Assembly (NCBI RefSeq): GCF_018446385.1
Contig: NC_055987.1
Location: forward strand, 11,555,705-11,619,704
Length of the DNA: 64,000 nt
DNA from: Zingiber officinale
Taxonomy: Eukaryota; Streptophyta; Magnoliopsida; Zingiberales; Zingiberaceae
Reading direction: 5' to 3'
Shown here: positions 5,149-50,844 of the stretch, piece after piece
How the letters are laid out: every line of letters begins with the position of its first letter
Numbering within the stretch: position 1 is the first letter of the stretch
Position numbers and translations under genes: made by a program
The notes under the pieces: model-generated
Seen by the model: only the letters and a program-made list of their open reading frames with translations
What the model was told of the DNA's origin: nothing
The model's database searches: none

Positions 5149-5287
5149 GTATAGATTTATTCTGAAATGGATGTGCAAAAATTATTACGAGTTCATGAAA
5201 TCAAAATAAATAAATGTCTAGTATCTTTTTCTAAATTTCTACCTTCTCGATAACTTAAAAGAAAAAAGAAATGAAAATTTTCACACC

Positions 5288-23656: not shown

Positions 23657-23661
23657 CCATA

Positions 23662-24672: not shown

Positions 24673-26557
24673 CCATACTTTCTCTCTACTCAATCTCTCC
24701 CATCACACTCATTGTTCTCTTTTTTTTTTCATCACACTTTCTCTCTCATCATACTTTCTCTCTCCTCAATCTCTCTCATCACACACTCTCTCCTCTTTTT
24801 TCATTATATTTTCTCTCTCTTCATCCTCTCACATCATATTTTCTCTCTCATCTTCTCTCATCATGCTCTCTCCTATTACACTCTCTTTTCTCATTTTCTC
24901 TCATCACACTTTCTCTCTCTTCATTCTTTCTCATCACACTTTCTCTCTCATCATACTTTCTCATCATTCTCTTTCATCATATTTTTCTCTCACATTCATC
25001 TTTCTCTCACATCTAATTTTTTCTCTTATTTTCCTTTAAGGGTAAAAAAGGAAATTTTGATTTATTCCGATAGAAAATATGCAAGTAACCAAACATTGCT
25101 TTTAAGAATGATATTAATGCTCATACTTATTCTCATTCCACAATACAATGATTCCCATTCCGATTCCTATTCCTAGGAAAGAACCAAACGTCCCCTTATT
25201 TTCATTTTTAGAGTTCTTGGACTACTTCATCACTATCCTTCTATGAACTTGTAAATTTGTAATATATGCTTTCGTATATGTTATTTTCTAGGCTTAGTTA
25301 ACTGATAAGGAGATAATTAATCTTAAATAGAGCAGCACTTTGCTCCATTAGCTCGAGGAGTGGATATTATTCCCAGGGACTGAGGACAAGGTTGGGCATA
25401 GAATATAGTGTATCATCATTAGATTATTACTTTGTGATCATCCAAGAATATATTGTTTGAAGTACATTTGAATTGAACATCCAAACTGTTGGATGTTTCT
25501 CTGTGGCACTTAGTGGCATATCTCCTCCAAGCACCTTCCTGATCAAAAATAATGCCAGGAATCAATAAAAGTTTAAGTTGAAAAAGCAAGGAATATGTCT
25601 TCTTTTTTTTTTTTTTTTGTTATCATCTTCTTTTGTTGATGTTGACAAGGAAATTTGCTTGTTTGCCTGTTGGCGAGCATCTTATAGAGTAATATGGTTT
25701 TCTCCTATGTGGTGGAGCTGATTAACCATGAAATGAAGAATAACGTCATTGGTTCAACTTAGTAATCACCGTATAGATAGATATATTATACGTAACTTTA
25801 TTTTGTATTTTGCAGCCGATTGTTTTCGCAACTCAAATCTACGACCTCAAAATCATATGATATTAATTTTACCATTATACTAAGACTCTTCAATTTAATT
25901 TAGTGCTCATTTGGGTGCATGTTGGACTAACATGCAACCCTAATGCATGAGCCAACACAATTAATAGGGCAAAAATTAAAAGGGCAAAAATTAAGAAAAA
26001 CATCACATCAACACACTTTAAAAAAAAAATACAAAGTCAAATGGACGTTTCTTCTATGATTTTATCTCAAAAATACTCATAGATTAATGTTGTTGTAGAA
26101 GCTATCAAGTATCTTCTACAATATGTAGAAACTATTGGTTAACTTATATAATGTATAGAAGTTAGCATTAAGCTATTATATATTGTAAAAATTACATATT
26201 AACTTTTCCCAGTTCAATCATGATTAAATTATGTTCAGTAACAACTATTTATAATCTTCTACACTATTAAATGATCAGATAATAGTAAAGTGCTTTGGAC
26301 AGTTCATGTTAAATAGGGTGTTCATTTAACTTTAATTGAAAATGAGACGCCTAATAATTTTATAAATGATGGATATACTTTTAAATTTAGCCCATCCTAA
26401 TAGACCTAATATGGAGTACTTCTAGCTCTTATTAAACACTACATCTTAATATAGTAAGCGTTTTAAAAATGAGACATCCCTAATTAACACAATGGTTAAT
26501 TTTTTTTTTAAAAAAATAAAATAAAATTACATCGTACTTTATATATATATATGAAAA

Positions 26558-26708
26558 ATGAGATGTAGAGGGAAAAAATCTCAAAGAAAAGTTCAGGGAT
26601 AGACACATAAAGTGATGAAGTTCACAAAAATGAAATGGTGGATCATGAATTTATGTGTCTATCCTTGAATTTTTTCTTGAGATTTTTTCTCTCTGCATAT
26701 CATTGCTA
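26558..26708. mobile_element. Hairpin MITE (unit A) upstream of glucosidase II beta
   Basis: About 50-bp arms pair with few mismatches: GAGATGTAGAGGGAAAAAAT at the left and GATATGCAGAGAGAAAAAAT from the reverse complement of the right, both running to GGATAGACACATAAA. The loop is about 45 bases. TA runs flank it (26540-26552 and 26709-26721), suggesting a TA target preference. It lies about 550 bases before the start codon. Confidence 0.7.
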
Positions 26709-27257
26709 TATATATATATATACTACATTAAAGTAAATCATTTTTTAATTTTAATCAAAAATATTATATATAGAGTATTTTTATATCAAAAATATTTTAA
26801 AAAGTTAGTCAATATTATTTAAATTTATCAAAAACTTCTTAGAAAGATCAAAATTAATAAAATATTATCGTATCAATCACTAAAATCATTGTTATAATAA
26901 TATTTTTAATTGAGCTAAATTGAAATATTTTAATATCTTTTAGCAATTAATTAATTAATAACGGTTATAATACTAAAATAAAAAGTATTATTTTAATTTT
27001 TAATTTTTAATTTTTAATTTTGATTTAACATGCGGCTCGGTTTGAAAGCGAACCGGTTCGAGAGGAGTGGAACGCGCCGGTTTGGTTTCGCCAATTGAAA
27101 GTGAACCGGCTCAAATGCGTGAGTTGAAGTCACCGACTTACGAGTGTGGTTCTGGAAGTTTACCAACTGGTACGAGTACGACCGGGGATACCCTTCGGCC
27201 GCCGTTCTCCACTTCTCCTGCATAGCGCGGAGACGAAGCTTTCTCGCTGAGGGATCG

Positions 27258-30200
27258 ATGGGAACCCATCGAATCACGCTTTCTCTGACGATCACGTGTC
27301 TTTGCTCGCTGTGGATCGGTGGATTCGCCTCCCTCTTGGCTCGCGAGTTTCTAGGAATCGCTCCCCAAGGTCCTCCTCCCGATCGCATTTGTTTATTTTT
27401 TTGCGTTTTTGTAATCTCTCGCTTCATCTGAGTTTTGCCATGATATTTTTGTGATTATTCTGATTTTAACTTCTTTGATTCGTAGATGAGGGTTACTATA
27501 AGTCGGATGTGATCAAATGCAAGGACGGATCGAAGAAATTCACCAAGCAACAGCTGAATGATGAGTTCTGCGACTGTGTCGATGGAACTGACGAGCCGGG
27601 TGAGTCTTACTGCAGGAGGATTTTCTTTTTGTCCGTGTCTCTTTTGCCTGATGAGGCTATTGTTCCAAAAAGTTCTCCTTTTTCCGTCGGTTTCGTGAAC
27701 ATTGTAGGATGTCTCTAGGAAGCCAGCAAACGTTGATTTTTTTCCCCCATTATTGATCTATTCGTTTTTAAAATGCCAAATTGCCGCTGGGGTTTTGCAG
27801 GTACATCAGCCTGTCCAGAAGGCAAATTCTACTGCCGGAACTTGGGCCACACTCCACAGATTATCTTCTCCTCTCGAGTGAACGATGGTCTTTGTGGTAA
27901 AGTTCAATATTTGTTTCTCTTTCCATTTCAGTTGTCACTTTAATGACTTTATCTGGAGTGGAAGTTTCTTTGTAAGCACATAGATTTTTTAAGAAAAAGA
28001 TATAAAATTTAGTCACGCGGCATAAAAATCATTTATATGATATAAATGCAATTGCTTGTGGCCAAGTATCACACATATTTTTAGGCTGTAATATGCAGTC
28101 ACTTGATGATGTTGTTGGTTCATCAACTCATCAATTTGCCAATTATTGTTTTGTTGACCTACTATAGCTATTAATTGCAAAGAAATAATATATTGTTTGT
28201 TCTATGTTTAGACCTTTATTGTATGATAGGATCATGCAAAAATTGAATCATTCTGTTTTTAAGAAAGTTGGAACAAGATGAAATGAGAGCAAGTACCTTG
28301 ATATATACCAGTAACTTTATTCAACAATTGCCTCGTGGTATTAATTCATAACATTTCCGTTGTTGCATTAGATTCTAATGACGTTCCTTTTGGTTTCTAT
28401 TGTACCTTGAATGTTTATGCCTATCTTTTGCTCATATTGTGTAGATTGTTGTGATGGAAGTGATGAATACAATGGCAATATAAAGTGCTCAAATACATGT
28501 TGGGAAGCTGGGAAAGCAGCACGAGAGAGATTGAAGAAGAAGATAGAAAGACATCAGGATGGTATAGTTATCCGTAAACAAGAAGTTGAAAAGGCAAAAC
28601 AAGCGTTTCTGAAAGAGGAGGCTGAGCTATCAAAACTGAAAAATGAAGAGAAGATACTTAAAGGACTAGTTGAGAAACTTAGAGGTGCGGTACTCTTTGC
28701 AACTGCACTGAAGTTCAGTAGTTCTAGTCTCATCAGTAAAAAATATTTGTTTAATGATTAAAATATTGTCAATTTTGACTTGGCTATGCATTTTGATTAT
28801 AATGATTCATCATTCACATGTCTCATGACAACAAAAAATTGCCTATTTGCTATTCTCACATGGTTCATTGATTCAAATAGAATATGGAATTGAAATATCC
28901 TTTTAGTATGAAATATCTCAATTATCTTGATTTAATCTTCATAATGACATTATCTCAGTTGAAGTGCATGTTTGAAGAGGCTTTTATATTCTTGAATTTA
29001 TTATGAGTTCTAAGTTTGTCAGTATTAAGTTTCTAACAAATATTTATTAGAGTTTATGATATCATAATCCAATGTTTCTTGTCCTACTCTTTTTTTTCTA
29101 ACCCTCTACGCAGAGCATAAAGAAAGGATAAAGCAAGTAGAGGAGGAAGAACGTTTGAAAAAGGAGAAAGAAGAAGAGAGACAGAGAGTTGCTGAAATAA
29201 AATCAAATGAACAGAAGAAATTATCAGATGAATATCTGCAAGATCTGACTGAGGAGACTCAGGACAAGCTGGAAAGGACTAGTCAGGTTAATTTGATTGT
29301 TGAACTAATATGCTTTGTTTCATAACTTTATCATACCTGAGTTAGCCATGCACTGATAGATCTTGTGGAGTGTAACTAAGGACATCCTATTCTAATGTGT
29401 TACAAGCTCAAATGAGTTTTAAAGTAACATAGAATCATTAAGTAGCTAAAACTGACATGGAGAGTAGTCTAGTAAATTCACAATACAAATGTACAGATTT
29501 ATTACCAAGTTTCTTATCTCATTTGTTTGCAATATCTGGGTGATGTCTTGGTTTGTACTGTTGTAGATCTCTGTTTGGTTATCAAGCAGTAAGCAAGTTG
29601 ATTTGTAAAACTTTGGAAGGAAGTTATTCTAGTTAACTGATTAAAGAAAGACAATCTATTTATTCATTGTCTATAACTCTATACAGGAAGATATATAATT
29701 GAATATTTGACTGAAAAGATTCTGAAGGATGTAGGCTATTTATGTTGACGGTTTGATGCAGGAACGGAAGAGTAATTTTAGTATTTTTTATTATTTTGCT
29801 AAGCTAGGTTTTTGAGGGTATTTCAGTCTTTTTCATATCTAGGGTTGGAGTCTATATATTTGGCTTTTTTAGTTATTTTGAGATAGTTTTTGATCAATAA
29901 GAATTTGCAGCTGCGCTGTTTCTTCCCAAATGTGAGTTTGATTACCTATCTCCTGGCATTCTGTGGAATCAACAGGGTTTACGAATCAACGGAACCAATA
30001 GTTTCCACTGTATTGGTTGGTATCAGAGCAAAATAATAAATTAGTTGGCACCCTTCTCCATCAGAACGAGGCACTTTGATACCCTCAAAAGAAGTTACGC
30101 CGGGAGCAATTTCCATTCTCTGTGGTCAAGGGTGCAAACGACATATATGCAAAAGACTAAAATACCCTAAAAACCTAACTCAGAAAAATAATAAAAATAC

Positions 30201-33200
30201 TAAAATTACTCTTCCGTTCCCGCATCATTATTTATTTGGCAAAAGAAACAAATTTGGAATAAATGTTCTATAACGTATATGATGGGTAGGCTATTGAGGC
30301 ATCTCGTAGACATATTAGTATATGTAGTATATTAATTACCTTCATAATATTTCAAATGAAGTCAGTATTTGTTAATCGGATGTGGTTCTGTGAACCATCT
30401 ATACACTAGCTGGAATTACAAATCAAAATTTGATCTATATCTTATTCTTGGTGAGTACCAAAATTGCTTATGCAGTGAGGGACCATATAATATTTGCTTA
30501 TAGCCATATCAGGATCATTTGGCTTCTCATGCAATAAGTTAACATCTATAGCTTATGGCACTTTATTTTTGTTATATGGTTCTGTTAGACACATACAAAG
30601 ATTTACTATGTATTGGTTAAGATGATTTGTTTAATTAGTAAGTGATGTATGTAAATTTTGTTTATTTTGGTTACTTAGGTTGATTAACTTACTGTATTAC
30701 ATAGTAGATGCAAATCAACATATTTTTAATTGGTGAGGTTATGCAATATCATCACGATAATTGGAAGCATCAAGTGGGGTAGGCCAACCTCTCTTGACCG
30801 ACTTGGGTCGTGCCATGAACCACAGACAAGTTGGGGTTGGGCATCACTTACGGTGTTCATGTCTTGAGCCCAACCAACTTCAAATCTATCAAAAAAAATT
30901 TATTTAATTTTTTAAATTTTATTTATATTTTTTATTTTTAAATGTTTAATTATTTTTAATTTCTTAAAAATGTTTAAAATAATTATTAAAAAACTCAAAC
31001 CTAATGGTACTTGTTCCTGTGCATAGGCTGGGTCAGCGTCTCGGCCTTGTCCAACCATGACATGACAAGTGTTTAGCCGATTGTGCCTGACCTAAAAAAA
31101 TTGCAGGCATATTGAGCTCGCACTAGCTAGGACTAAGTATAGCCTGTTGACACCACTAGTTATAGCTAACGTTATTTGTTATAAAGGTGGACTGCATATA
31201 AACCTGAGCATGCCTTAAATTGACTCAACTGTATACTTCCTGGATATACTCATTATCATCTTAATTTTTGTTGAAACTATATTTCCTCTAACAAATTTCT
31301 AGTTTTATTTCACTTCAATTTTTTAGTTCTGAAGTTCCTTTGTGCAATTCAAACTTTGATTTGATTTTATTTACACTCATTATATCAAAAACAATATACA
31401 CCAAGAAGCTTTATCACATCAATATAGTTATCTGATATTTATTTCTTCTCTGAACTTCGTCATAATAGTTATTTAGAACAAATCATGTGCTATTTAAAGC
31501 AAATTTAGAACTGTAGAAACTAGAAACTAACGTGGATGTCAAAATATACAAAAATATCCATGAATTGACATGGGAACATTCTATTCTCAGTTGTCTATAT
31601 CACGTTAGGAAACACTTGGAACTTGATTCTTGTCCATCCTTGGAAAATATGTGGAAACAAGATCTTCAAGCAATTATACTAGCAATTTCTATCTTGCTCT
31701 TCTAGGATTAACCAGAAGTAGTATCTTAATGACACTATTTTTAATGCTTATATCAGGACAAGACAGAAGTACAGCATGAATCTACAGTTCAAGCGGGAAA
31801 TGACTACAAATCTGGGAATGAGATTCCTGCTGATCACACAGTGGATCAGGTACTTGCTATATTGAGGATGCTAAAATTAGTACTATTCTCTTTCTTATTA
31901 ATATATATTTCCTTCCACTAAAGTACATTAGAGATGATCATGGTTCTGATCATACAAGTGATGAGGTGCCTTCAGATCATGCAACAAATCAGGTAAAAGA
32001 TCATCTCTTGTCAGGAGATCATTGTGTCTGAAATTTTCTGTGTTTTTTGGGTTTTGGTGAACATTTCTTGGCTTGTTTTACTAGCATGTGCCAGAAGACA
32101 AAGATATTACTACATTTAAAGCTAGAGCTAGTGAGGAAACTGGAGCCAAAGAGGTCCATCCAGACCATGCTGCAGAGCAGGTAATGGGTGTTTCTGAATC
32201 CTTTGCTTCTGTTTTGTCAAAGAATGTTTGTATTTCTGATAGATAAAGGATCTTCCAGTGATTGCAGCTCTTCAGCTGGTTCCAAATTTGAGATGACTTG
32301 CATTTGCTAAGAAGCTAATTTAGAGCTGTTCATCTATGACGACTGTGAACTTTGAATCTTTTTTATATGGGTGTTTGATAATGTTTCTATTCCAATCTTC
32401 TACTCATGTATAAACAAAATCATTGTTCATAAGAAAAAATTGCCGGCAAAAGTGCTACTAGTAATTTTGGGCTTATCACCTGAATGCTATTATAAAAACT
32501 ATCCAAGTATGAGAGGGCATCTAATTTTTTTACTATTTAATTGAATTGCTTTTCAATGAGCTCAAGTTAAAAAAAAAATAAAAATTACAGGTCTATTTTT
32601 TTAAGGAAAAAATAGATTATTTTGTACTTGTTTGATCTTGGTTGTATTGTTGGAAATATTTTGCTGTGTTTGGGGCACACAAAAGGAAATAATTTTCCCT
32701 CTCTAGGTGGGGTTGACTGGGTCATCAATCTGCTCAGCTGGATTAGTCTGCTGGCTTGATCAGTCTGCCTAGTCATGCCCAGCATGACCGACCTAACTGT
32801 CCTGCTTGAATCGATTGACCAAAACCTTTGACCCATTTCCAATGAAAGTCATTTTCCTCAAAGGAATACTTAGACCAGAAGAAAGTTTCCCTGTGAAAAG
32901 GAATTTTTTGTTTACTATGATATTCTATTGCACCAAACACCAGAAAATTTAGAAAATGTTTTTCTTGAAAACATTTTACACGAAACAAATGGATCCTAAG
33001 TATGCAGTTGTACGTTGAAAGTTTAAAGCATCAAATATGCTAACAGTTGTATTCTTGGTTGATCCAAAACTAGAAACGTAAGTATGAGTGACGTACCTAT
33101 CAGGACAATGATGTTGAAGGATGATTGTTATTGGTGAAGGTTTACAGAGAAATACTGTACTGTATTTTTTGATGAGTTTTCATTTTTAGTTGCCTTCATA

Positions 33201-36200
33201 AGCTACTGTTTCATGGTCTCAGGGCATGTATTGATGTGACGGCACATTAGTGGCCAATTAAGGGTAGGGTTTGTGTTTTGACTTCTGTTGTATCCTATTT
33301 TATGTTTCTTATTGACTACATGAATTCTTTGATGCTTGAATCCTTTCTTATAAAGCAATCAAATTCGTAGATCTGTGGATAAAAGTTGTCTTTCATGTTT
33401 CATCATGGATTCTTACAGGAGCAGAGTCCTGAGACCACTGAGGGCTTATCAAGAGAAGAGTTGGGTCGCCTTGTAGCCTCTAGATGGACTGGTGAAGTCT
33501 CTGACAAACAGACAAAAGAACACAATGATAGAATAGAGGAAGAGGAAGAGGAAGAAAATCATAATTTTGCTGAGAGGGTAGAAGAAGAAAATTATGATAG
33601 TTATCATTCTGACATTGATGATCATGGACATCAATATGATGAGGGTGAGGATGATGATAATGATATTGAAGATGATGCAGATGAGCAGTATGGCAAAGAT
33701 GATATTGAACATGATGATTCCAGTTACTCTGACAAAGATTTTAAATCAGAGTTTCCAGGTTTTAGAAGTTTGATGATTTAGCTTTAACCATACACTATCT
33801 GGTTCTGTAAGAATATGTTATATGTAATGTTGTTTTAAGTATCTGTTTCTAATGCATGTAGATACAACTCCTGGTAGCCTATCATGGCTTGAGAAGATAC
33901 AACATACTGTTCAAAATGTCATTCAAACATTCAACTTTTTCAAGGCTCCTGTAAATATATCAGGTATGTCATGTTTCTCAATCTTAAACTATGGTCCATG
34001 AGGCATGAGAATCTCCAACTCCTTGATTTTTTCAACACATTTGCAGAGTCTTCTCAAGTGAATAAGGAGTATGATGATGCAAGCTCAAAACTGTCCAAGT
34101 TACAATCAAGGATTTCCAGTCTATCCGAGAAGCTACAGCATGATTTTGGTGAGTATCAAGACAAACAACATAGTTTTCTGATAAAATCATTTTCTGTTAG
34201 GTATGTATATGTTTGTATGCTTATGAAATAAAAAGATTGCTTTCTTTTTAACTGTCGTTAGTCTTGTGTTCTAATTATATGGGCAGAACTCTTCATCTAT
34301 TTGACATTTCATCTTAAGCTCCTTTTTCATGACATTGCACATTGTCTAATTGACCTATTGTGCTTACTTCTGTTTTATCAGACATTTATTCTTGTAAGTG
34401 CAACTAATCTGTTTCTTTGCTTTTAATATATTTCTATGTCAATGTAGCTCTGTTAGGTGCTTCACATGTGTCTGGGAAGCCATCCATTGTTGTAGGCCAA
34501 ATATTTTATAAGATACCATTCAAATATAAAATTAAGTTCACTTCATATGATGTTATCTGGTGAGGAACATTACAAAACTGGAGATGCCATTGGATTCTTT
34601 TTTGTAGTATGATAGTAAATTGTGTACTAGATTCATGTTTGTTACATTTTGTTGATTTTTATGTGCACAATCTCTGTTATCCCCACCATTTGATAAATGA
34701 AAAAAAAAATCTAATCTCAGCTTAACTACTTTTGCCAGGGAAGGAGAAAGAGTTTTATTCGTTTTATGATCATTGCTTTGAGAGAAACCAGAACAAGTAT
34801 GCACTTACACTTTCATCATTTCATGTGTCCCTTTTTCTGTTTGTCTCACATATGCACTCCAAATCTTTAATTTGGCTTTTGCGTTTGTTTTTGCCAGGTA
34901 TGTCTACAAGGTCTGTCCATTTAAAAAAGCATCCCAAGTTGAAGGACATAGCACTACACAGTTAGGGTAAGCTCTGATTCACCTTGCTTGTAAAGTTACT
35001 ATTTGTTTGTCTAGGTCAAGGAAGCTTTGGTTTCTTGACAATGAGAGACTTGTGTTTTTTGGTGGCTGCATAATGTTTTTGAAAATTGAAAGAGTTATCA
35101 AATGTTAATAAACTAATTAGGACATTCGTGAACAAGCTTAGTGCTCAGCTTTATAAGAACTTATTTATCTTCATGTGATATATATATAAGTGGCTTATAT
35201 TAGATCAGCTATTTTTCTTAAATTATAAGGAAGACAGCATTGTTGCTTGAGCTCAGTAAAGAAAATGACAAGCTTGAACACCGTGAAACTTGACTTGGCT
35301 CAGCTTATGTATACCCCTACAACTGACCTTGGAAAAAGTTGGTTTACTGATTAGGCATGTATCGTCATGGAGCACTTTGTAAACTGTGTCATAATTTGAA
35401 GGAATTATTTAATTGCACAGCATTATTAGGTCTCTTCATTTGTTCTCAAGGCGTATTGACGAACTGAAGTTAGTTCAATAACTTTGGAGGACTTGACGAG
35501 TTGTATACATGTTATTTATCTTCATCAAGAGAGGCATTCACCTGGAAAATGACTGGCCTATCCAACTAATGTGACAAATGAAAGAAATTAGTGAAGTTCG
35601 CTTAAAAATTTGAGTTTGTCATTATTTAAAGGTTTTATTCCAAAAGGCTGAGGTTCATGTAATTCTGTTGCATGATTCATTATCAGGCGATGGGAAAGAT
35701 TCGAAGAGTCTTACAGTGTGATGCAATTTTTAAATGGAGACAGATGCTGGAATGGTCCAGATAGAAGTTTAAAGGTATCAGTCATCATTAAATGGCCACT
35801 TTTGTGATCCTTAGCAATGTTGTTTCCCAATTGTTGACTTCCATACAACAAACAGATAAGGCTCAGATGTGGCTTGAAAGATGAACTTATGGATGTTGAC
35901 GAACCAAGCCGATGCGAGTATGTAACTTCTTACCTCAAACCACTTGCCTCACAGCTGTTTCGTATGTTATTTTTTAATGCTATTTTATCACAAAATATTT
36001 GTTCAGTGAGGTATATTCCATTTCTTTTCTTATTTTCAGGTATGCTGCAATTCTCACAACTCCTATCTTGTGTCAAGAAGAGAAGTTGAAGGTACCCAAA
36101 TTCATTTTTTACTTGGGACAAATTTAAAACTTTCCTTAAATGAATTTAAAGCTTACAGTACGAATGATGAAAATTGTGATAGGAACTACAACAAAAACTA

Positions 36201-36245
36201 GAGGATCTGAGCAAAAATCAACCCTCGACTCACGACGAGCTATAG
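27258..36245 (+). CDS. PSL4: Glucosidase II subunit beta (PRKCSH-like), 17 exons, copy A
   Basis: Non-catalytic subunit of ER glucosidase II, which trims glucose from N-glycans in glycoprotein folding control; in Arabidopsis PSL4 it supports immune-receptor maturation. Exons: 27258-27369, 27486-27599, 27801-27896, 28445-28684, 29114-29286, 31757-31849, 31924-31992, 32085-32180, 33419-33758, 33862-33963, 34047-34148, 34739-34796, 34898-34966, 35687-35774, 35856-35917, 36040-36091, 36183-36245; frame closes at 642 residues (family about 640). Domains: signal peptide 1-27; cysteine-rich LDLa-like alpha-subunit-binding part 38-108 ([18 protein letters not shown]); coiled coil 115-245; acidic 345-440; MRH mannose-binding domain 513-622 ([23 protein letters not shown]); C-terminal HDEL for ER retention. 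An upstream in-frame extension to 27144 is less likely because the signal peptide starts at 27258. Intact. Confidence 0.96.
29743..30029 (+). mobile_element. Copia-type LTR remnant in intron 5 (copy A)
   Basis: TGTTGACGG at 29743 begins an LTR-like stretch with a TATATATTTGG motif. It is followed at 30018-30029 by TGGTATCAGAGC, the methionine-tRNA primer site usual for plant Ty1/copia elements. No coding part remains. It is degraded and old. The twin in unit B is at 42358-42644. Confidence 0.55.
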
Positions 36246-37536
36246 TTTTCACGCAAGAAGATTTGACAAGCTGTGGTCACTCTCGAGTTAGCTCTGAAGA
36301 GCAACACACTTCACAGTAGATTGAGAACCAAGCGTTATTTATTGAGAAAACATCATGAGGCACCTCCCGATTATTTCCAGGCTCGCTTCTTTTGATGTTG
36401 TTATTCTTTTTATGCATTCCAGGCAAAGCTACGATTAATCTTTTCTATAAATTTTGGTAAGGCAACCATGGATTAGTGTGTACTTTTGTTATGGGTTTAT
36501 TTCATATAAGATCTGATCTGAGGTAAACCAGTTACCTATTGTGAGCTCTATTTAGCCCTCACAAGCACAGCTGAATTCGTTAGGTGGTAGATTATCATAA
36601 AAGAGCATAGATTAAATTCCTTAGGAAATAATCTCTTAGGAAGTAAAATTCCTCTCACTTAAAGAGACATTGTTCGGCCATCGTGATTTATCTTCCTTTT
36701 AAATATCTTTGGATAGACGTGGAGCTGTGGAGGGGGCGTCTAGGATGAACGGATCCCATTTTGTCACAAGCTGAAAGTTATATTTGGAGTAGATGGACTC
36801 TGAGACAGTTGATTCCTTGGCCAGAGTTTCAAAACACAAGTTAGATTTGAGACATGGTTCATTTCTTCAATCTCGTGTGGCTCCATGTCCTCTTTCAATT
36901 CTTGAAATCTAGACTTGGAAGACTTTGTTATCATGATCTACCTTCTTTGCCCTCTTTCAATTCTTACGTAATCTAGACTTGGAAGACTTTATTATCATGA
37001 TCTATTTTCTTTGTGTTGATCCTAGGACGGGTGTTGAGGGTGAACACTTCATCTTTCTTTTGCCACTCAGTAATCTAGACTTGGAAAAACACAATTTAGA
37101 GTGTATATATATATATATATAAAAGTAATCCAGATATCTAACTCTTTGAATTAATTAATCTTGAAGAAATTTTTTGAACCGACTAATCCTAAAATTGATC
37201 GGTCTAGTCTTATATAAAAAATTAATTATCAGGATAAATTAGAAAGGGTTCGTAATTTAATCTTAGATTCCTAATTAAAATCATTGTTCGGGGTTAGAGT
37301 AGAAACATGTTTGCACTCACGTAAAATATTTTATTGATTCACCGTCAAAATGACAAACTACACTTACCACACATGAGAGAGTACAACTTATGTAAAAGAA
37401 GATTGAGACTGCAAATTTAAGTTGGCAACGAACGGCCAAAGCTAAATTTATTCTTTAACTAATGATCATAGACTTGCATGGATTGTAACAATTCCTGCAT
37501 GCATGCAGCGTACTTGAATATATCAGCAGACCCCAT
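36246..37536. other. Intergenic between glucosidase II beta and the cut glycine-rich gene (unit A)
   Basis: This holds the probable 3' UTR of the glucosidase gene, a two-copy tandem repeat of about 62 bp (about 36889-37013, units with ATCTAGACTTGGAAGACTTT), a third partial unit near 37070, and a TA microsatellite at about 37107-37122. The convergent arrangement means the 3' ends of the two genes face each other. Same content at 48861-50151 in unit B. Confidence 0.6.
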
Positions 37537-38034
37537 TCAATGACGGCCGCCAATTCCACCGTCGAACCCACCACCACCGAATCCTCCACTGAGGCCGCCG
37601 CCCTTGCCGAAACCACTTCCCAAGCCACCTCCCAGTCCGCCTACCTTGCCAAAACCGCCGCCGGCGCCGCCACCAAACCCAGCTCCTTTCTCTCTGCCGT
37701 CACCAAGCCCGCCACCTTTACCAATGCCACCGCCGAGCCCACCACCTTTCCCAATGCCACCGCCAAGTCCCACGCCTCCACCAAGCCCGCCGCCGAGCCC
37801 TCCACCCTTTCCAATGCCAGTGGCAAGTCCACTTCCCTTTCCATAACCACCGCCAAGTCCCACGCCTCCACCGAGCCCGCCGCCGAGCCCTCCACCTTTT
37901 CCGATGCCAGCACCAAGTCCAGATAAGGAGATAATTAATCTAAATAGAGCAGCACTTTGCTCCATTAGCTCGAGGTGGATATTATTCCCAGGGACTGAGG
38001 ACAAGGTTGGGCATAGAATATAGTGTATCATCAT
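37537..38034 (-). pseudogene. Cut glycine-rich protein gene fused to foreign 5' sequence
   Basis: Reading on the minus strand, 37921-37537 is the C-terminal part of the glycine-rich protein found whole at 50718-50152. Its signal peptide, first glycine-rich block and promoter are missing because the repeat edge falls inside the gene. Upstream of the edge the reading stays open by chance for about 38 codons to an ATG at 38034 (165 codons in all), made from non-coding sequence of unit B. There is no signal peptide and no known promoter, so it is probably dead unless the fusion recruits one. If the repeat is an assembly artefact, this object does not exist. Confidence 0.75.
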
Positions 38035-39172
38035 TAGATTATTACTTTGTGATCATCCAAGAATATATTGTTTGAAGTACATTTGAATTGAACATCCAAA
38101 CTGTTGGATGTTTCTCTGTGGCACTTAGTGGCATATCTCCTCCAAGCACCTTCCTGATCAAAAATAATGCCAGGAATCAATAAAAGTTTAAGTTGAAAAA
38201 GCAAGGAATATGTCTTCTTTTTTTTTTTTTTTTGTTATCATCTTCTTTTGTTGATGTTGACAAGGAAATTTGCTTGTTTGCCTGTTGGCGAGCATCTTAT
38301 AGAGTAATATGGTTTTCTCCTATGTGGTGGAGCTGATTAACCATGAAATGAAGAATAACGTCATTGGTTCAACTTAGTAATCACCGTATAGATAGATATA
38401 TTATACGTAACTTTATTTTGTATTTTGCAGCCGATTGTTTTCGCAACTCAAATCTACGACCTCAAAATCATATGATATTAATTTTACCATTATACTAAGA
38501 CTCTTCAATTTAATTTAGTGCTCATTTGGGTGCATGTTGGACTAACATGCAACCCTAATGCATGAGCCAACACAATTAATAGGGCAAAAATTAAAAGGGC
38601 AAAAATTAAGAAAAACATCACATCAACACACTTTAAAAAAAAAATACAAAGTCAAATGGACGTTTCTTCTATGATTTTATCTCAAAAATACTCATAGATT
38701 AATGTTGTTGTAGAAGCTATCAAGTATCTTCTACAATATGTAGAAACTATTGGTTAACTTATATAATGTATAGAAGTTAGCATTAAGCTATTATATATTG
38801 TAAAAATTACATATTAACTTTTCCCAGTTCAATCATGATTAAATTATGTTCAGTAACAACTATTTATAATCTTCTACACTATTAAATGATCAGATAATAG
38901 TAAAGTGCTTTGGACAGTTCATGTTAAATAGGGTGTTCATTTAACTTTAATTGAAAATGAGACGCCTAATAATTTTATAAATGATGGATATACTTTTAAA
39001 TTTAGCCCATCCTAATAGACCTAATATGGAGTACTTCTAGCTCTTATTAAACACTACATCTTAATATAGTAAGCGTTTTAAAAATGAGACATCCCTAATT
39101 AACACAATGGTTAATTTTTTTTTTAAAAAAATAAAATAAAATTACATCGTACTTTATATATATATATGAAAA

Positions 39173-39323
39173 ATGAGATGTAGAGGGAAAAAATCTCAAA
39201 GAAAAGTTCAGGGATAGACACATAAAGTGATGAAGTTCACAAAAATGAAATGGTGGATCATGAATTTATGTGTCTATCCTTGAATTTTTTCTTGAGATTT
39301 TTTCTCTCTGCATATCATTGCTA
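39173..39323. mobile_element. Hairpin MITE (unit B)
   Basis: This is the exact copy of the 26558-26708 hairpin, carried along in the tandem repeat. It lies about 550 bases before the start of glucosidase II beta copy B. Confidence 0.7.
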
Positions 39324-39872
39324 TATATATATATATACTACATTAAAGTAAATCATTTTTTAATTTTAATCAAAAATATTATATATAGAGTATTTTTATA
39401 TCAAAAATATTTTAAAAAGTTAGTCAATATTATTTAAATTTATCAAAAACTTCTTAGAAAGATCAAAATTAATAAAATATTATCGTATCAATCACTAAAA
39501 TCATTGTTATAATAATATTTTTAATTGAGCTAAATTGAAATATTTTAATATCTTTTAGCAATTAATTAATTAATAACGGTTATAATACTAAAATAAAAAG
39601 TATTATTTTAATTTTTAATTTTTAATTTTTAATTTTGATTTAACATGCGGCTCGGTTTGAAAGCGAACCGGTTCGAGAGGAGTGGAACGCGCCGGTTTGG
39701 TTTCGCCAATTGAAAGTGAACCGGCTCAAATGCGTGAGTTGAAGTCACCGACTTACGAGTGTGGTTCTGGAAGTTTACCAACTGGTACGAGTACGACCGG
39801 GGATACCCTTCGGCCGCCGTTCTCCACTTCTCCTGCATAGCGCGGAGACGAAGCTTTCTCGCTGAGGGATCG

Positions 39873-42800
39873 ATGGGAACCCATCGAATCACGCTTTCTC
39901 TGACGATCACGTGTCTTTGCTCGCTGTGGATCGGTGGATTCGCCTCCCTCTTGGCTCGCGAGTTTCTAGGAATCGCTCCCCAAGGTCCTCCTCCCGATCG
40001 CATTTGTTTATTTTTTTGCGTTTTTGTAATCTCTCGCTTCATCTGAGTTTTGCCATGATATTTTTGTGATTATTCTGATTTTAACTTCTTTGATTCGTAG
40101 ATGAGGGTTACTATAAGTCGGATGTGATCAAATGCAAGGACGGATCGAAGAAATTCACCAAGCAACAGCTGAATGATGAGTTCTGCGACTGTGTCGATGG
40201 AACTGACGAGCCGGGTGAGTCTTACTGCAGGAGGATTTTCTTTTTGTTCGTGTCTCTTTTGCCTGATGAGGCTATTGTTCCAAAAAGTTCTCCTTTTTCC
40301 GTCGGTTTCGTGAACATTGTAGGATGTCTCTAGGAAGCCAGCAAACGTTGATTTTTTTCCCCCATTATTGATCTATTCGTTTTTAAAATGCCAAATTGCC
40401 GCTGGGGTTTTGCAGGTACATCAGCCTGTCCAGAAGGCAAATTCTACTGCCGGAACTTGGGCCACACTCCACAGATTATCTTCTCCTCTCGAGTGAACGA
40501 TGGTCTTTGTGGTAAAGTTCAATATTTGTTTCTCTTTCCATTTCAGTTGTCACTTTAATGACTTTATCTGGAGTGGAAGTTTCTTTGTAAGCACATAGAT
40601 TTTTTAAGAAAAAGATATAAAATTTAGTCACGCGGCATAAAAATCATTTATATGATATAAATGCAATTGCTTGTGGCCAAGTATCACACATATTTTTAGG
40701 CTGTAATATGCAGTCACTTGATGATGTTGTTGGTTCATCAACTCATCAATTTGCCAATTATTGTTTTGTTGACCTACTATAGCTATTAATTGCAAAGAAA
40801 TAATATATTGTTTGTTCTATGTTTAGACCTTTATTGTATGATAGGATCATGCAAAAATTGAATCATTCTGTTTTTAAGAAAGTTGGAACAAGATGAAATG
40901 AGAGCAAGTACCTTGATATATACCAGTAACTTTATTCAACAATTGCCTCGTGGTATTAATTCATAACATTTCCGTTGTTGCATTAGATTCTAATGACGTT
41001 CCTTTTGGTTTCTATTGTACCTTGAATGTTTATGCCTATCTTTTGCTCATATTGTGTAGATTGTTGTGATGGAAGTGATGAATACAATGGCAATATAAAG
41101 TGCTCAAATACATGTTGGGAAGCTGGGAAAGCAGCACGAGAGAGATTGAAGAAGAAGATAGAAAGACATCAGGATGGTATAGTTATCCGTAAACAAGAAG
41201 TTGAAAAGGCAAAACAAGCGTTTCTGAAAGAGGAGGCTGAGCTATCAAAACTGAAAAATGAAGAGAAGATACTTAAAGGACTAGTTGAGAAACTTAGAGG
41301 TGCGGTACTCTTTGCAACTGCACTGAAGTTCAGTAGTTCTAGTCTCATCAGTAAAAAATATTTGTTTAATGATTAAAATATTGTCAATTTTGACTTGGCT
41401 ATGCATTTTGATTATAATGATTCATCATTCACATGTCTCATGACAACAAAAAATTGCCTATTTGCTATTCTCACATGGTTCATTGATTCAAATAGAATAT
41501 GGAATTGAAATATCCTTTTAGTATGAAATATCTCAATTATCTTGATTTAATCTTCATAATGACATTATCTCAGTTGAAGTGCATGTTTGAAGAGGCTTTT
41601 ATATTCTTGAATTTATTATGAGTTCTAAGTTTGTCAGTATTAAGTTTCTAACAAATATTTATTAGAGTTTATGATATCATAATCCAATGTTTCTTGTCCT
41701 ACTCTTTTTTTTCTAACCCTCTACGCAGAGCATAAAGAAAGGATAAAGCAAGTAGAGGAGGAAGAACGTTTGAAAAAGGAGAAAGAAGAAGAGAGACAGA
41801 GAGTTGCTGAAATAAAATCAAATGAACAGAAGAAATTATCAGATGAATATCTGCAAGATCTGACTGAGGAGACTCAGGACAAGCTGGAAAGGACTAGTCA
41901 GGTTAATTTGATTGTTGAACTAATATGCTTTGTTTCATAACTTTATCATACCTGAGTTAGCCATGCACTGATAGATCTTGTGGAGTGTAACTAAGGACAT
42001 CCTATTCTAATGTGTTACAAGCTCAAATGAGTTTTAAAGTAACATAGAATCATTAAGTAGCTAAAACTGACATGGAGAGTAGTCTAGTAAATTCACAATA
42101 CAAATGTACAGATTTATTACCAAGTTTCTTATCTCATTTGTTTGCAATATCTGGGTGATGTCTTGGTTTGTACTGTTGTAGATCTCTGTTTGGTTATCAA
42201 GCAGTAAGCAAGTTGATTTGTAAAACTTTGGAAGGAAGTTATTCTAGTTAACTGATTAAAGAAAGACAATCTATTTATTCATTGTCTATAACTCTATACA
42301 GGAAGATATATAATTGAATATTTGACTGAAAAGATTCTGAAGGATGTAGGCTATTTATGTTGACGGTTTGATGCAGGAACGGAAGAGTAATTTTAGTATT
42401 TTTTATTATTTTGCTAAGCTAGGTTTTTGAGGGTATTTCAGTCTTTTTCATATCTAGGGTTGGAGTCTATATATTTGGCTTTTTTAGTTATTTTGAGATA
42501 GTTTTTGATCAATAAGAATTTGCAGCTGCGCTGTTTCTTCCCAAATGTGAGTTTGATTACCTATCTCCTGGCATTCTGTGGAATCAACAGGGTTTACGAA
42601 TCAACGGAACCAATAGTTTCCACTGTATTGGTTGGTATCAGAGCAAAATAATAAATTAGTTGGCACCCTTCTCCATCAGAACGAGGCACTTTGATACCCT
42701 CAAAAGAAGTTACGCCGGGAGCAATTTCCATTCTCTGTGGTCAAGGGTGCAAACGACATATATGCAAAAGACTAAAATACCCTAAAAACCTAACTCAGAA

Positions 42801-45800
42801 AAATAATAAAAATACTAAAATTACTCTTCCGTTCCCGCATCATTATTTATTTGGCAAAAGAAACAAATTTGGAATAAATGTTCTATAACGTATATGATGG
42901 GTAGGCTATTGAGGCATCTCGTAGACATATTAGTATATGTAGTATATTAATTACCTTCATAATATTTCAAATGAAGTCAGTATTTGTTAATCGGATGTGG
43001 TTCTGTGAACCATCTATACACTAGCTGGAATTACAAATCAAAATTTGATCTATATCTTATTCTTGGTGAGTACCAAAATTGCTTATGCAGTGAGGGACCA
43101 TATAATATTTGCTTATAGCCATATCAGGATCATTTGGCTTCTCATGCAATAAGTTAACATCTATAGCTTATGGCACTTTATTTTTGTTATATGGTTCTGT
43201 TAGACACATACAAAGATTTACTATGTATTGGTTAAGATGATTTGTTTAATTAGTAAGTGATGTATGTAAATTTTGTTTATTTTGGTTACTTAGGTTGATT
43301 AACTTACTGTATTACATAGTAGATGCAAATCAACATATTTTTAATTGGTGAGGTTATGCAATATCATCACGATAATTGGAAGCATCAAGTGGGGTAGGCC
43401 AACCTCTCTTGACCGACTTGGGTCGTGCCATGAACCACAGACAAGTTGGGGTTGGGCATCACTTACGGTGTTCATGTCTTGAGCCCAACCAACTTCAAAT
43501 CTATCAAAAAAAATTTATTTAATTTTTTAAATTTTATTTATATTTTTTATTTTTAAATGTTTAATTATTTTTAATTTCTTAAAAATGTTTAAAATAATTA
43601 TTAAAAAACTCAAACCTAATGGTACTTGTTCCTGTGCATAGGCTGGGTCAGCGTCTCGGCCTTGTCCAACCATGACATGACAAGTGTTTAGCCGATTGTG
43701 CCTGACCTAAAAAAATTGCAGGCATATTGAGCTCGCACTAGCTAGGACTAAGTATAGCCTGTTGACACCACTAGTTATAGCTAACGTTATTTGTTATAAA
43801 GGTGGACTGCATATAAACCTGAGCATGCCTTAAATTGACTCAACTGTATACTTCCTGGATATACTCATTATCATCTTAATTTTTGTTGAAACTATATTTC
43901 CTCTAACAAATTTCTAGTTTTATTTCACTTCAATTTTTTAGTTCTGAAGTTCCTTTGTGCAATTCAAACTTTGATTTGATTTTATTTACACTCATTATAT
44001 CAAAAACAATATACACCAAGAAGCTTTATCACATCAATATAGTTATCTGATATTTATTTCTTCTCTGAACTTCGTCATAATAGTTATTTAGAACAAATCA
44101 TGTGCTATTTAAAGCAAATTTAGAACTGTAGAAACTAGAAACTAACGTGGATGTCAAAATATACAAAAATATCCATGAATTGACATGGGAACATTCTATT
44201 CTCAGTTGTCTATATCACGTTAGGAAACACTTGGAACTTGATTCTTGTCCATCCTTGGAAAATATGTGGAAACAAGATCTTCAAGCAATTATACTAGCAA
44301 TTTCTATCTTGCTCTTCTAGGATTAACCAGAAGTAGTATCTTAATGACACTATTTTTAATGCTTATATCAGGACAAGACAGAAGTACAGCATGAATCTAC
44401 AGTTCAAGCGGGAAATGACTACAAATCTGGGAATGAGATTCCTGCTGATCACACAGTGGATCAGGTACTTGCTATATTGAGGATGCTAAAATTAGTACTA
44501 TTCTCTTTCTTATTAATATATATTTCCTTCCACTAAAGTACATTAGAGATGATCATGGTTCTGATCATACAAGTGATGAGGTGCCTTCAGATCATGCAAC
44601 AAATCAGGTAAAAGATCATCTCTTGTCAGGAGATCATTGTGTCTGAAATTTTCTGTGTTTTTTGGGTTTTGGTGAACATTTCTTGGCTTGTTTTACTAGC
44701 ATGTGCCAGAAGACAAAGATATTACTACATTTAAAGCTAGAGCTAGTGAGGAAACTGGAGCCAAAGAGGTCCATCCAGACCATGCTGCAGAGCAGGTAAT
44801 GGGTGTTTCTGAATCCTTTGCTTCTGTTTTGTCAAAGAATGTTTGTATTTCTGATAGATAAAGGATCTTCCAGTGATTGCAGCTCTTCAGCTGGTTCCAA
44901 ATTTGAGATGACTTGCATTTGCTAAGAAGCTAATTTAGAGCTGTTCATCTATGACGACTGTGAACTTTGAATCTTTTTTATATGGGTGTTTGATAATGTT
45001 TCTATTCCAATCTTCTACTCATGTATAAACAAAATCATTGTTCATAAGAAAAAATTGCCGGCAAAAGTGCTACTAGTAATTTTGGGCTTATCACCTGAAT
45101 GCTATTATAAAAACTATCCAAGTATGAGAGGGCATCTAATTTTTTTACTATTTAATTGAATTGCTTTTCAATGAGCTCAAGTTAAAAAAAAAATAAAAAT
45201 TACAGGTCTATTTTTTTAAGGAAAAAATAGATTATTTTGTACTTGTTTGATCTTGGTTGTATTGTTGGAAATATTTTGCTGTGTTTGGGGCACACAAAAG
45301 GAAATAATTTTCCCTCTCTAGGTGGGGTTGACTGGGTCATCAATCTGCTCAGCTGGATTAGTCTGCTGGCTTGATCAGTCTGCCTAGTCATGCCCAGCAT
45401 GACCGACCTAACTGTCCTGCTTGAATCGATTGACCAAAACCTTTGACCCATTTCCAATGAAAGTCATTTTCCTCAAAGGAATACTTAGACCAGAAGAAAG
45501 TTTCCCTGTGAAAAGGAATTTTTTGTTTACTATGATATTCTATTGCACCAAACACCAGAAAATTTAGAAAATGTTTTTCTTGAAAACATTTTACACGAAA
45601 CAAATGGATCCTAAGTATGCAGTTGTACGTTGAAAGTTTAAAGCATCAAATATGCTAACAGTTGTATTCTTGGTTGATCCAAAACTAGAAACGTAAGTAT
45701 GAGTGACGTACCTATCAGGACAATGATGTTGAAGGATGATTGTTATTGGTGAAGGTTTACAGAGAAATACTGTACTGTATTTTTTGATGAGTTTTCATTT

Positions 45801-48800
45801 TTAGTTGCCTTCATAAGCTACTGTTTCATGGTCTCAGGGCATGTATTGATGTGACGGCACATTAGTGGCCAATTAAGGGTAGGGTTTGTGTTTTGACTTC
45901 TGTTGTATCCTATTTTATGTTTCTTATTGACTACATGAATTCTTTGATGCTTGAATCCTTTCTTATAAAGCAATCAAATTCGTAGATCTGTGGATAAAAG
46001 TTGTCTTTCATGTTTCATCATGGATTCTTACAGGAGCAGAGTCCTGAGACCACTGAGGGCTTATCAAGAGAAGAGTTGGGTCGCCTTGTAGCCTCTAGAT
46101 GGACTGGTGAAGTCTCTGACAAACAGACAAAAGAACACAATGATAGAATAGAGGAAGAGGAAGAGGAAGAAAATCATAATTTTGCTGAGAGGGTAGAAGA
46201 AGAAAATTATGATAGTTATCATTCTGACATTGATGATCATGGACATCAATATGATGAGGGTGAGGATGATGATAATGATATTGAAGATGATGCAGATGAG
46301 CAGTATGGCAAAGATGATATTGAACATGATGATTCCAGTTACTCTGACAAAGATTTTAAATCAGAGTTTCCAGGTTTTAGAAGTTTGATGATTTAGCTTT
46401 AACCATACACTATCTGGTTCTGTAAGAATATGTTATATGTAATGTTGTTTTAAGTATCTGTTTCTAATGCATGTAGATACAACTCCTGGTAGCCTATCAT
46501 GGCTTGAGAAGATACAACATACTGTTCAAAATGTCATTCAAACATTCAACTTTTTCAAGGCTCCTGTAAATATATCAGGTATGTCATGTTTCTCAATCTT
46601 AAACTATGGTCCATGAGGCATGAGAATCTCCAACTCCTTGATTTTTTCAACACATTTGCAGAGTCTTCTCAAGTGAATAAGGAGTATGATGATGCAAGCT
46701 CAAAACTGTCCAAGTTACAATCAAGGATTTCCAGTCTATCCGAGAAGCTACAGCATGATTTTGGTGAGTATCAAGACAAACAACATAGTTTTCTGATAAA
46801 ATCATTTTCTGTTAGGTATGTATATGTTTGTATGCTTATGAAATAAAAAGATTGCTTTCTTTTTAACTGTCGTTAGTCTTGTGTTCTAATTATATGGGCA
46901 GAACTCTTCATCTATTTGACATTTCATCTTAAGCTCCTTTTTCATGACATTGCACATTGTCTAATTGACCTATTGTGCTTACTTCTGTTTTATCAGACAT
47001 TTATTCTTGTAAGTGCAACTAATCTGTTTCTTTGCTTTTAATATATTTCTATGTCAATGTAGCTCTGTTAGGTGCTTCACATGTGTCTGGGAAGCCATCC
47101 ATTGTTGTAGGCCAAATATTTTATAAGATACCATTCAAATATAAAATTAAGTTCACTTCATATGATGTTATCTGGTGAGGAACATTACAAAACTGGAGAT
47201 GCCATTGGATTCTTTTTTGTAGTATGATAGTAAATTGTGTACTAGATTCATGTTTGTTACATTTTGTTGATTTTTATGTGCACAATCTCTGTTATCCCCA
47301 CCATTTGATAAATGAAAAAAAAAATCTAATCTCAGCTTAACTACTTTTGCCAGGGAAGGAGAAAGAGTTTTATTCGTTTTATGATCATTGCTTTGAGAGA
47401 AACCAGAACAAGTATGCACTTACACTTTCATCATTTCATGTGTCCCTTTTTCTGTTTGTCTCACATATGCACTCCAAATCTTTAATTTGGCTTTTGCGTT
47501 TGTTTTTGCCAGGTATGTCTACAAGGTCTGTCCATTTAAAAAAGCATCCCAAGTTGAAGGACATAGCACTACACAGTTAGGGTAAGCTCTGATTCACCTT
47601 GCTTGTAAAGTTACTATTTGTTTGTCTAGGTCAAGGAAGCTTTGGTTTCTTGACAATGAGAGACTTGTGTTTTTTGGTGGCTGCATAATGTTTTTGAAAA
47701 TTGAAAGAGTTATCAAATGTTAATAAACTAATTAGGACATTCGTGAACAAGCTTAGTGCTCAGCTTTATAAGAACTTATTTATCTTCATGTGATATATAT
47801 ATAAGTGGCTTATATTAGATCAGCTATTTTTCTTAAATTATAAGGAAGACAGCATTGTTGCTTGAGCTCAGTAAAGAAAATGACAAGCTTGAACACCGTG
47901 AAACTTGACTTGGCTCAGCTTATGTATACCCCTACAACTGACCTTGGAAAAAGTTGGTTTACTGATTAGGCATGTATCGTCATGGAGCACTTTGTAAACT
48001 GTGTCATAATTTGAAGGAATTATTTAATTGCACAGCATTATTAGGTCTCTTCATTTGTTCTCAAGGCGTATTGACGAACTGAAGTTAGTTCAATAACTTT
48101 GGAGGACTTGACGAGTTGTATACATGTTATTTATCTTCATCAAGAGAGGCATTCACCTGGAAAATGACTGGCCTATCCAACTAATGTGACAAATGAAAGA
48201 AATTAGTGAAGTTCGCTTAAAAATTTGAGTTTGTCATTATTTAAAGGTTTTATTCCAAAAGGCTGAGGTTCATGTAATTCTGTTGCATGATTCATTATCA
48301 GGCGATGGGAAAGATTCGAAGAGTCTTACAGTGTGATGCAATTTTTAAATGGAGACAGATGCTGGAATGGTCCAGATAGAAGTTTAAAGGTATCAGTCAT
48401 CATTAAATGGCCACTTTTGTGATCCTTAGCAATGTTGTTTCCCAATTGTTGACTTCCATACAACAAACAGATAAGGCTCAGATGTGGCTTGAAAGATGAA
48501 CTTATGGATGTTGACGAACCAAGCCGATGCGAGTATGTAACTTCTTACCTCAAACCACTTGCCTCACAGCTGTTTCGTATGTTATTTTTTAATGCTATTT
48601 TATCACAAAATATTTGTTCAGTGAGGTATATTCCATTTCTTTTCTTATTTTCAGGTATGCTGCAATTCTCACAACTCCTATCTTGTGTCAAGAAGAGAAG
48701 TTGAAGGTACCCAAATTCATTTTTTACTTGGGACAAATTTAAAACTTTCCTTAAATGAATTTAAAGCTTACAGTACGAATGATGAAAATTGTGATAGGAA

Positions 48801-48860
48801 CTACAACAAAAACTAGAGGATCTGAGCAAAAATCAACCCTCGACTCACGACGAGCTATAG
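39873..48860 (+). CDS. PSL4: Glucosidase II subunit beta, 17 exons, copy B
   Basis: This copy is identical in every exon I compared to copy A, shifted by 12,615. Exons: 39873-39984, 40101-40214, 40416-40511, 41060-41299, 41729-41901, 44372-44464, 44539-44607, 44700-44795, 46034-46373, 46477-46578, 46662-46763, 47354-47411, 47513-47581, 48302-48389, 48471-48532, 48655-48706, 48798-48860. It predicts the same 642-residue protein with signal peptide, LDLa-like part, coiled coil, acidic stretch, MRH domain and HDEL. About 1.95 kb of upstream sequence is shared with copy A, so both may be expressed alike. The sequence upstream of that differs: copy A has the TIR element, copy B the cut glycine-rich gene. 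Confidence 0.95.
42358..42644 (+). mobile_element. Copia-type LTR remnant in intron 5 (copy B)
   Basis: This is the copy of the 29743-30029 remnant, including the TGGTATCAGAGC primer-site motif (42633-42644). It is present because the whole intron was duplicated. Confidence 0.55.
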
Positions 48861-50151
48861 TTTTCACGCAAGAAGATTTGACAAGCTGTGGTCACTCTCG
48901 AGTTAGCTCTGAAGAGCAACACACTTCACAGTAGATTGAGAACCAAGCGTTATTTATTGAGAAAACATCATGAGGCACCTCCCGATTATTTCCAGGCTCG
49001 CTTCTTTTGATGTTGTTATTCTTTTTATGCATTCCAGGCAAAGCTACGATTAATCTTTTCTATAAATTTTGGTAAGGCAACCATGGATTAGTGTGTACTT
49101 TTGTTATGGGTTTATTTCATATAAGATCTGATCTGAGGTAAACCAGTTACCTATTGTGAGCTCTATTTAGCCCTCACAAGCACAGCTGAATTCGTTAGGT
49201 GGTAGATTATCATAAAAGAGCATAGATTAAATTCCTTAGGAAATAATCTCTTAGGAAGTAAAATTCCTCTCACTTAAAGAGACATTGTTCGGCCATCGTG
49301 ATTTATCTTCCTTTTAAATATCTTTGGATAGACGTGGAGCTGTGGAGGGGGCGTCTAGGATGAACGGATCCCATTTTGTCACAAGCTGAAAGTTATATTT
49401 GGAGTAGATGGACTCTGAGACAGTTGATTCCTTGGCCAGAGTTTCAAAACACAAGTTAGATTTGAGACATGGTTCATTTCTTCAATCTCGTGTGGCTCCA
49501 TGTCCTCTTTCAATTCTTGAAATCTAGACTTGGAAGACTTTGTTATCATGATCTACCTTCTTTGCCCTCTTTCAATTCTTACGTAATCTAGACTTGGAAG
49601 ACTTTATTATCATGATCTATTTTCTTTGTGTTGATCCTAGGACGGGTGTTGAGGGTGAACACTTCATCTTTCTTTTGCCACTCAGTAATCTAGACTTGGA
49701 AAAACACAATTTAGAGTGTATATATATATATATATAAAAGTAATCCAGATATCTAACTCTTTGAATTAATTAATCTTGAAGAAATTTTTTGAACCGACTA
49801 ATCCTAAAATTGATCGGTCTAGTCTTATATAAAAAATTAATTATCAGGATAAATTAGAAAGGGTTCGTAATTTAATCTTAGATTCCTAATTAAAATCATT
49901 GTTCGGGGTTAGAGTAGAAACATGTTTGCACTCACGTAAAATATTTTATTGATTCACCGTCAAAATGACAAACTACACTTACCACACATGAGAGAGTACA
50001 ACTTATGTAAAAGAAGATTGAGACTGCAAATTTAAGTTGGCAACGAACGGCCAAAGCTAAATTTATTCTTTAACTAATGATCATAGACTTGCATGGATTG
50101 TAACAATTCCTGCATGCATGCAGCGTACTTGAATATATCAGCAGACCCCAT
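48861..50151. other. Intergenic between glucosidase II beta and the glycine-rich gene (unit B)
   Basis: Same content as 36246-37536: probable 3' UTR, the about 62-bp tandem duplication (about 49504-49628) and a TA microsatellite near 49722-49737. Confidence 0.6.
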
Positions 50152-50718
50152 TCAATGACGGCCGCCAATTCCACCGTCGAACCCACCACCACCGAATCCT
50201 CCACTGAGGCCGCCGCCCTTGCCGAAACCACTTCCCAAGCCACCTCCCAGTCCGCCTACCTTGCCAAAACCGCCGCCGGCGCCGCCACCAAACCCAGCTC
50301 CTTTCTCTCTGCCGTCACCAAGCCCGCCACCTTTACCAATGCCACCGCCGAGCCCACCACCTTTCCCAATGCCACCGCCAAGTCCCACGCCTCCACCAAG
50401 CCCGCCGCCGAGCCCTCCACCCTTTCCAATGCCAGTGGCAAGTCCACTTCCCTTTCCATAACCACCGCCAAGTCCCACGCCTCCACCGAGCCCGCCGCCG
50501 AGCCCTCCACCTTTTCCGATGCCAGCACCAAGTCCACCTGCCTTGCCAAAACCACCACCAAGTCCAACACCGCCACCGAGGCCCTTGCCAAAGCTGCCAC
50601 CTTTGATGGGCCACAAGAATTCCTCGCCGAGCTTCTTGTCGGCCAGTTGCCTACCGAAGGCAGAGGCGGCGACAGAGCTGAAGCAGAGCAGCATCGCAAG
50701 CGTGCTTCTGCTCCCCAT
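50152..50718 (-). CDS. Secreted glycine-rich protein (cell-wall type), single exon
   Basis: 188 residues from the ATG at 50718. An upstream in-frame ATG at 50757 would add 13 residues, but 50718 directly precedes a good signal peptide (MGSRSTLAMLLCFSSVAASA, cleavage likely near residue 22). A short charged linker follows (RQLADKKLGEEFLWPIKGG), then a glycine-rich body of repeats such as GLGGGVGLGGG and IGKGGGLGGG, ending GGIGGRH. This fits class I plant glycine-rich wall proteins; function beyond wall structure is not established. A TATAAATA box on the minus strand (50791-50798) is about 75 bases upstream. The repeat boundary at 50536 lies at about codon 61, so this is the complete parent of the cut copy at 37537-37921. 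Confidence 0.88.
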   Translation of the reverse strand: MGSRSTLAMLLCFSSVAASAFGRQLADKKLGEEFLWPIKGGSFGKGLGGGVGLGGGFGKAGGLGAGIGKGGGLGGGLGGGVGLGGGYGKGSGLATGIGKGGGLGGGLGGGVGLGGGIGKGGGLGGGIGKGGGLGDGREKGAGFGGGAGGGFGKVGGLGGGLGSGFGKGGGLSGGFGGGGFDGGIGGRH

Positions 50719-50790
50719 TGTTAATACGTGCTGGTGCAGAAGACTATACGCTTGCAATTGTGTTGGAAAAAGGAAGAGGAAGAGCTCAAA

Positions 50791-50798
50791 TATTTATA
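50791..50798 (-). promoter_or_regulatory. TATA box of the glycine-rich protein gene
   Basis: TATAAATA on the minus strand lies about 73 bases before the ATG at 50718, a normal spacing for a short plant leader. Confidence 0.6.
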
Positions 50799-50844
50799 GG
50801 AAAGAAAGAACGAACAATTAATGATTCCCAACTTTTCAAAAACA

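Follow-up and report, generated by a model that had tools for sequence, protein, structure and literature searches.

Does the head-to-tail repeat in this part of the ginger genome represent a real second copy of a glucosidase II beta gene, or the same stretch of one chromosome assembled twice? The window, i.e., the whole 64,000-nt stretch of DNA that was analysed, corresponds to C2:11,555,705–11,619,704 (total length of C2, 194,392,478 bp), and the genome used for comparison comprised 3,090,333,446 bases in 211 contigs. The source of the sequence is very probably the haplotype-resolved assembly of ginger (Zingiber officinale 'Zhangliang'; PMC8342452) and the 171.6-Mb C1 would then be the homologous chromosome of C2.

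Results

Structure of the repeat and its junction

The first-pass annotation had placed a head-to-tail 12.6-kb tandem repeat at positions 25304–50536 of the window. This was borne out by self-BLAST of the window, in which units A and B were 99.968% identical over 12,618 columns, with one mismatch and two gaps.

25304..37921, plus strand: unit A, 12,618 bp, with the letters of C1 at both the substitution and the 2-bp deletion
37922..50536, plus strand: unit B, 12,615 bp, with T at 40248 and three bases missing in its first 57 bp
37921..37922, no strand: blunt, N-free A/B junction, proposed to be an unmerged contig boundary

Direct comparison of the units confirmed that the sole substitution is 27633 C/40248 T. 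Unit B additionally lacks one T, corresponding to position 25323 of unit A (CTTAAA to CTAAA), and two bases of GAGGAG, corresponding to positions 25358–25359 of unit A, and the units are otherwise identical. The three missing bases had been described as falling within the first 55 bases of unit B; their location and clustering at the start of this unit were reproduced, with all three in the first 57 bp, and bases are missing in unit B only. The two deletions lie 20 and 55 bp from the A/B junction, on one side of it only, and, with three difference events placed at random, at least two would be no further than 57 bp from a unit end with a probability of approximately 2 × 10−4.

No N was found anywhere in the 64,000-nt window, the A/B junction included, and the comparison of bases at the breakpoints revealed no microhomology or filler at this junction. 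Unit A and the left flank end in different bases, and unit B and the right flank start with different bases. When 3 kb of sequence to each side of the two unit ends was compared, only chance or simple-repeat matches of 12–17 bp were present among the first four matches listed per comparison, and unequal crossing over was rejected on this ground. The mechanistic breakpoint signature of a young tandem duplication, i.e., flanking homology, microhomology or filler, was accordingly not seen, blunt end joining being possible. A 244-bp probe over the junction had a single full-length match in the genome, at 37921/37922; the halves of the probe matched the outer unit ends, C1 and, more weakly, other places.

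Gene content of the units

A glucosidase II beta gene is present in each unit, and the right breakpoint falls in a glycine-rich-protein ORF.

27258..36245, plus strand: intron-containing glucosidase II beta gene of unit A, from the signal-peptide ATG to the stop after HDEL
39873..48860, plus strand: glucosidase II beta gene of unit B, at the coordinates of unit A + 12,615, with identical coding sequence
50155..50793, minus strand: ORF of a glycine-rich protein, with the right breakpoint (50536/50537) inside it
37540..37921, minus strand: headless part of the glycine-rich-protein ORF at the end of unit A

In unit A, the gene starts with the ATG at 27258 and ends with HDEL and a stop at 36231–36245, and exon-sized segments between the start and HDEL are kept in the paralog on C13. 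In the earlier statement that the unit carries a complete glucosidase II beta gene, “complete” is thus to be understood by start, stop and conserved segments. PF12999 scored at or above its cut-off on the exon segments 27479–27643 and 27779–27901 and below it on 28411–28758, whereas PF13015 scored above its cut-off on 35676–35792 and below it on 35844–36083; PF07915 was weak in the gene (16 bits vs a cut-off of 27). These PRKCSH-group domains and the ER-retention signal HDEL are as expected of glucosidase II beta. The sole A/B difference within the gene is in the intron that follows exon 2, 34 bp from the start of that intron, and, because this single difference is intronic, both gene copies encode the same protein.

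Genome-wide, PF12999 was found 12 times: two matches in the C1 gene, four in the C2 units, two each on C13 and C14, and one further match each on C1 and C2. This further PF12999-like pair lies far from the locus, at C2:154276187–154276294 and C1:136865689–136865796, on homologous chromosomes.

Because the right breakpoint cuts the glycine-rich-protein ORF, unit A has only a startless part of it. Compared with that of C1, the ORF lacks 15 bp, in frame, after position 50554, 18 bp to the right of the right breakpoint (50537–50600 region).

Comparison with the homologous chromosome and paralogs

C1 is collinear with the window from approximately 3.5 kb to the window end, with insertions and deletions, and the unit occurs once on it, in the order left flank–unit–right flank. 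Both breakpoints are crossed by unbroken C1 alignment blocks, the left one by the block at window positions 25196–26549 and the right one by the block at 49904–50845. This single-unit order is the ancestral state that would be predicted both by a contig overlap and by a real duplication. At the substitution, C1 has C, the same as unit A, and at the 2-bp deletion, it carries the letters of unit A; the T run contains three bases in C1, two in unit A and one in unit B. Judged by these letters, it is unit B that deviates at every A/B difference.

The divergence of C1 from the unit amounts to 0.8–15.7% substitutions per 500-bp bin vs one substitution in 12.6 kb between units A and B. This bears on the reading in which the units are two alleles placed in one chromosome, i.e., an allelic (heterotype) false duplication. 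Such a duplication would suit the high heterozygosity of ginger, estimated by k-mers at 3.6% in the cultivar 'Zhugen' (PMC8342499), and among the false duplications of the genomes examined in PMC9516828, the heterotype kind was more common. However, the other allele sits on C1 and is far more divergent than A is from B, so this reading was rejected and is given only a very small probability. What the units do present is the same locus twice, near-identical and without allele-like differences, as is typical of homotype false duplications.

Over positions 3500–64000, the C1/C2 divergence is very uneven, ranging from 0.2% (15500–16499) to more than 15% (36500–36999 and 53000–53499) per 500-bp bin. 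C13 and C14 carry an older paralogous copy, and their mutual identity is 93–96% in the three longest aligned blocks.

Near the left breakpoint, the two chromosomes differ by an insertion.

22957..25195, no strand: 2.24-kb insertion, absent from C1 (empty site), ending 108 bp left of unit A

The insertion is bounded by the terminal inverted repeats GGGGGCGTTTGG / CCAAACGTCCCC, and its edges are TCA/TTA, where C1 has a single TTA; it looks like an element of the PIF/Harbinger type. Its middle part (approximately 23662–24673) matches repeat pairs located a few kilobases apart elsewhere and, to judge by this pattern, looks like a solo LTR nested within the insertion. In the 264 kb sampled, no 300-bp windows are more pyrimidine-biased than those at 23281 and 24711, both within the insertion. 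Loss of PacBio HiFi coverage in T/C-rich sequence has been described in print; as a cause of a break at this locus it was not relied on, the assembly having been made from nanopore reads.

Origin of the repeat

We consider it highly probable that the tandem repeat is an unmerged contig overlap, i.e., an assembly artefact, and the second glucosidase II beta copy is probably not real; the weights given to the three readings discussed here are our judgement rather than computed posteriors. According to this model, one contig would have ended at 37921 and another would have begun at the base equivalent to 25304, and a single 12.6-kb piece of one chromosome-1 haplotype would be represented in both contig ends. 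During scaffolding, the contigs would have been set side by side with their overlap unrecognised, and gap closing or an assembler join would have left no N between them, so that the true chromosome would read left flank–one unit–right flank, like C1. The position 37921/37922 would then be a former contig boundary, and the bases missing from unit B would be uncorrected nanopore errors at a contig end; the pipeline step that made the join may have been scaffolding, gap closing or the assembler join.

The first-pass annotation had set a contig overlap beside a very young duplication, and this pair of readings is supported. The overlap is now favoured because C1 is single-copy and continuous over both breakpoints, because unit B is the odd copy throughout, because two of the three difference events, comprising all of the missing bases, lie within 57 bp of the junction, because this junction is blunt and without homology, and because of the way in which the assembly was made, i.e., by nanopore overlap-layout, Hi-C scaffolding, gap closing and short-read polishing.

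As described in PMC8342452, the 'Zhangliang' assembly (3.1 Gb, 11 chromosome pairs, 219 scaffolds, the longest of 194.39 Mb) started from contigs obtained from nanopore reads by Canu correction and the overlap-layout assemblers SMARTdenovo and wtdbg2, with Pilon polishing applied seven times, followed by Hi-C scaffolding by 3d-DNA, LR_Gapcloser (twice) and NextPolish (five times). In the tests of one benchmark, raw fills by LR_Gapcloser averaged approximately 88–90% identity (PMC8848313). The 1185 contigs with an N50 of 5.74 Mb present before scaffolding gave way to 796 contigs with an N50 of 12.68 Mb, with 577 gaps left (PMC8342452); because the contigs fell in number through the gap-closing pipeline, N-free joins of former contigs are to be expected. 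The same paper gives a single-base error rate of approximately 0.0014%, from which approximately 0.2 errors would be expected per unit, so one stray substitution is unremarkable. It also reports 17,445 duplications between haplotypes and the production of approximately 145 Gb of Illumina reads; the raw reads of the project are public (PRJNA647255). If the junction were real, Illumina reads across it should let the polishers mend nanopore deletions; at a false junction, the reads would be clipped and the errors would stay.

At the same time, several points weaken the overlap reading. There is no N spacer at the junction, whereas the described class of such artefacts has a gap between the copies. 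LR_Gapcloser tolerates a deviation of no more than 20% between the distances on read and scaffold, and the algorithm section of its paper does not treat overlapping contigs (PMC6324547), so that such a join by this program is not obvious. Another benchmark attributes duplications largely to scaffolding (LRScaf) rather than to gap filling (PMC10166144). Finally, no second join of this kind appeared in the sampled 264 kb (C2, 144 kb; C1, 60 kb; C13 and C14, 30 kb each), a sample too small to say how common such joins are: it contained no other multi-kilobase near-identical tandem repeats, and the other direct pairs of at least 98% identity that were listed were 381–887 bp long.

The ginger repeat most likely belongs to a described class, the homotype false duplications, which are located at contig boundaries, have approximately the length of a read and result from overlapping contig ends scaffolded in tandem with a gap, as set out in PMC8081667. 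It shares with them the near-identical head-to-tail copies, the differences attributable to sequencing errors and the origin in a scaffolded overlap-layout assembly; the error-like differences are seen here as bases missing in unit B only, in two events that both lie in its first 57 bp. Unlike the published examples, which have a gap between the copies, the ginger copies abut without N. Those examples were proven by read depth and k-mer copy number.

By comparison, it is unlikely that one chromosome-1 haplotype carries a genuine tandem duplication of very recent date, formed via end joining or template switching. The small deletions would then be repair scars beside the junction, and clonal propagation would keep the duplication heterozygous. 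Consistent with such an event, the N-free junction came through Hi-C scaffolding, gap closing and polishing, the other haplotype would be expected to be single-copy here as well, and the pyrimidine-rich tracts of the haplotype-specific insertion near the left breakpoint could favour breakage. The repeat also resembles a young tandem segmental duplication in its head-to-tail order, in the doubling of one whole gene and in the cutting of one ORF at the boundary. It differs in the blunt junction without microhomology or filler, in the one-sided deletions, which at 20 and 55 bp off the junction and on the unit B side only would be an unusual scar, and in a junction without independent support elsewhere in the assembly; homology for unequal crossing over is lacking as well. 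At assumed substitution rates of 1.3 × 10−8 to 2 × 10−9, one substitution in 12.6 kb would correspond to roughly 3,000–20,000 years. With a real duplication a few thousand years old, which we regard as improbable, the diploid would have three copies of glucosidase II beta at this locus instead of two, accompanied by a headless glycine-rich-protein fragment, and the left breakpoint would lie beside a pyrimidine-rich transposon insertion present on this haplotype only.

If, as we favour, the repeat is an overlap artefact, gene counts and comparisons of haplotypes that are based on this ginger assembly include one false glucosidase II beta gene, the headless glycine-rich-protein fragment has also been falsely added, and other N-free joins of the ginger assembly deserve the same check. 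False duplications do get counted as gene gains, as PMC9516828 describes. If real, the repeat would be an ordinary young copy-number variant.

Other repeats and non-coding RNA scans

Scans of the window with Rfam (gathering threshold) and for tRNA genes gave no matches. An element at 29754–30227 has inverted ends of approximately 85 bp (29754–29838 and 30145–30227) and relatives on many other chromosomes, the copy counts there being lower bounds. Additionally, a short, partly palindromic, MITE-like repeat at 26497–26766 recurs in both orientations at numerous sites on other chromosomes.
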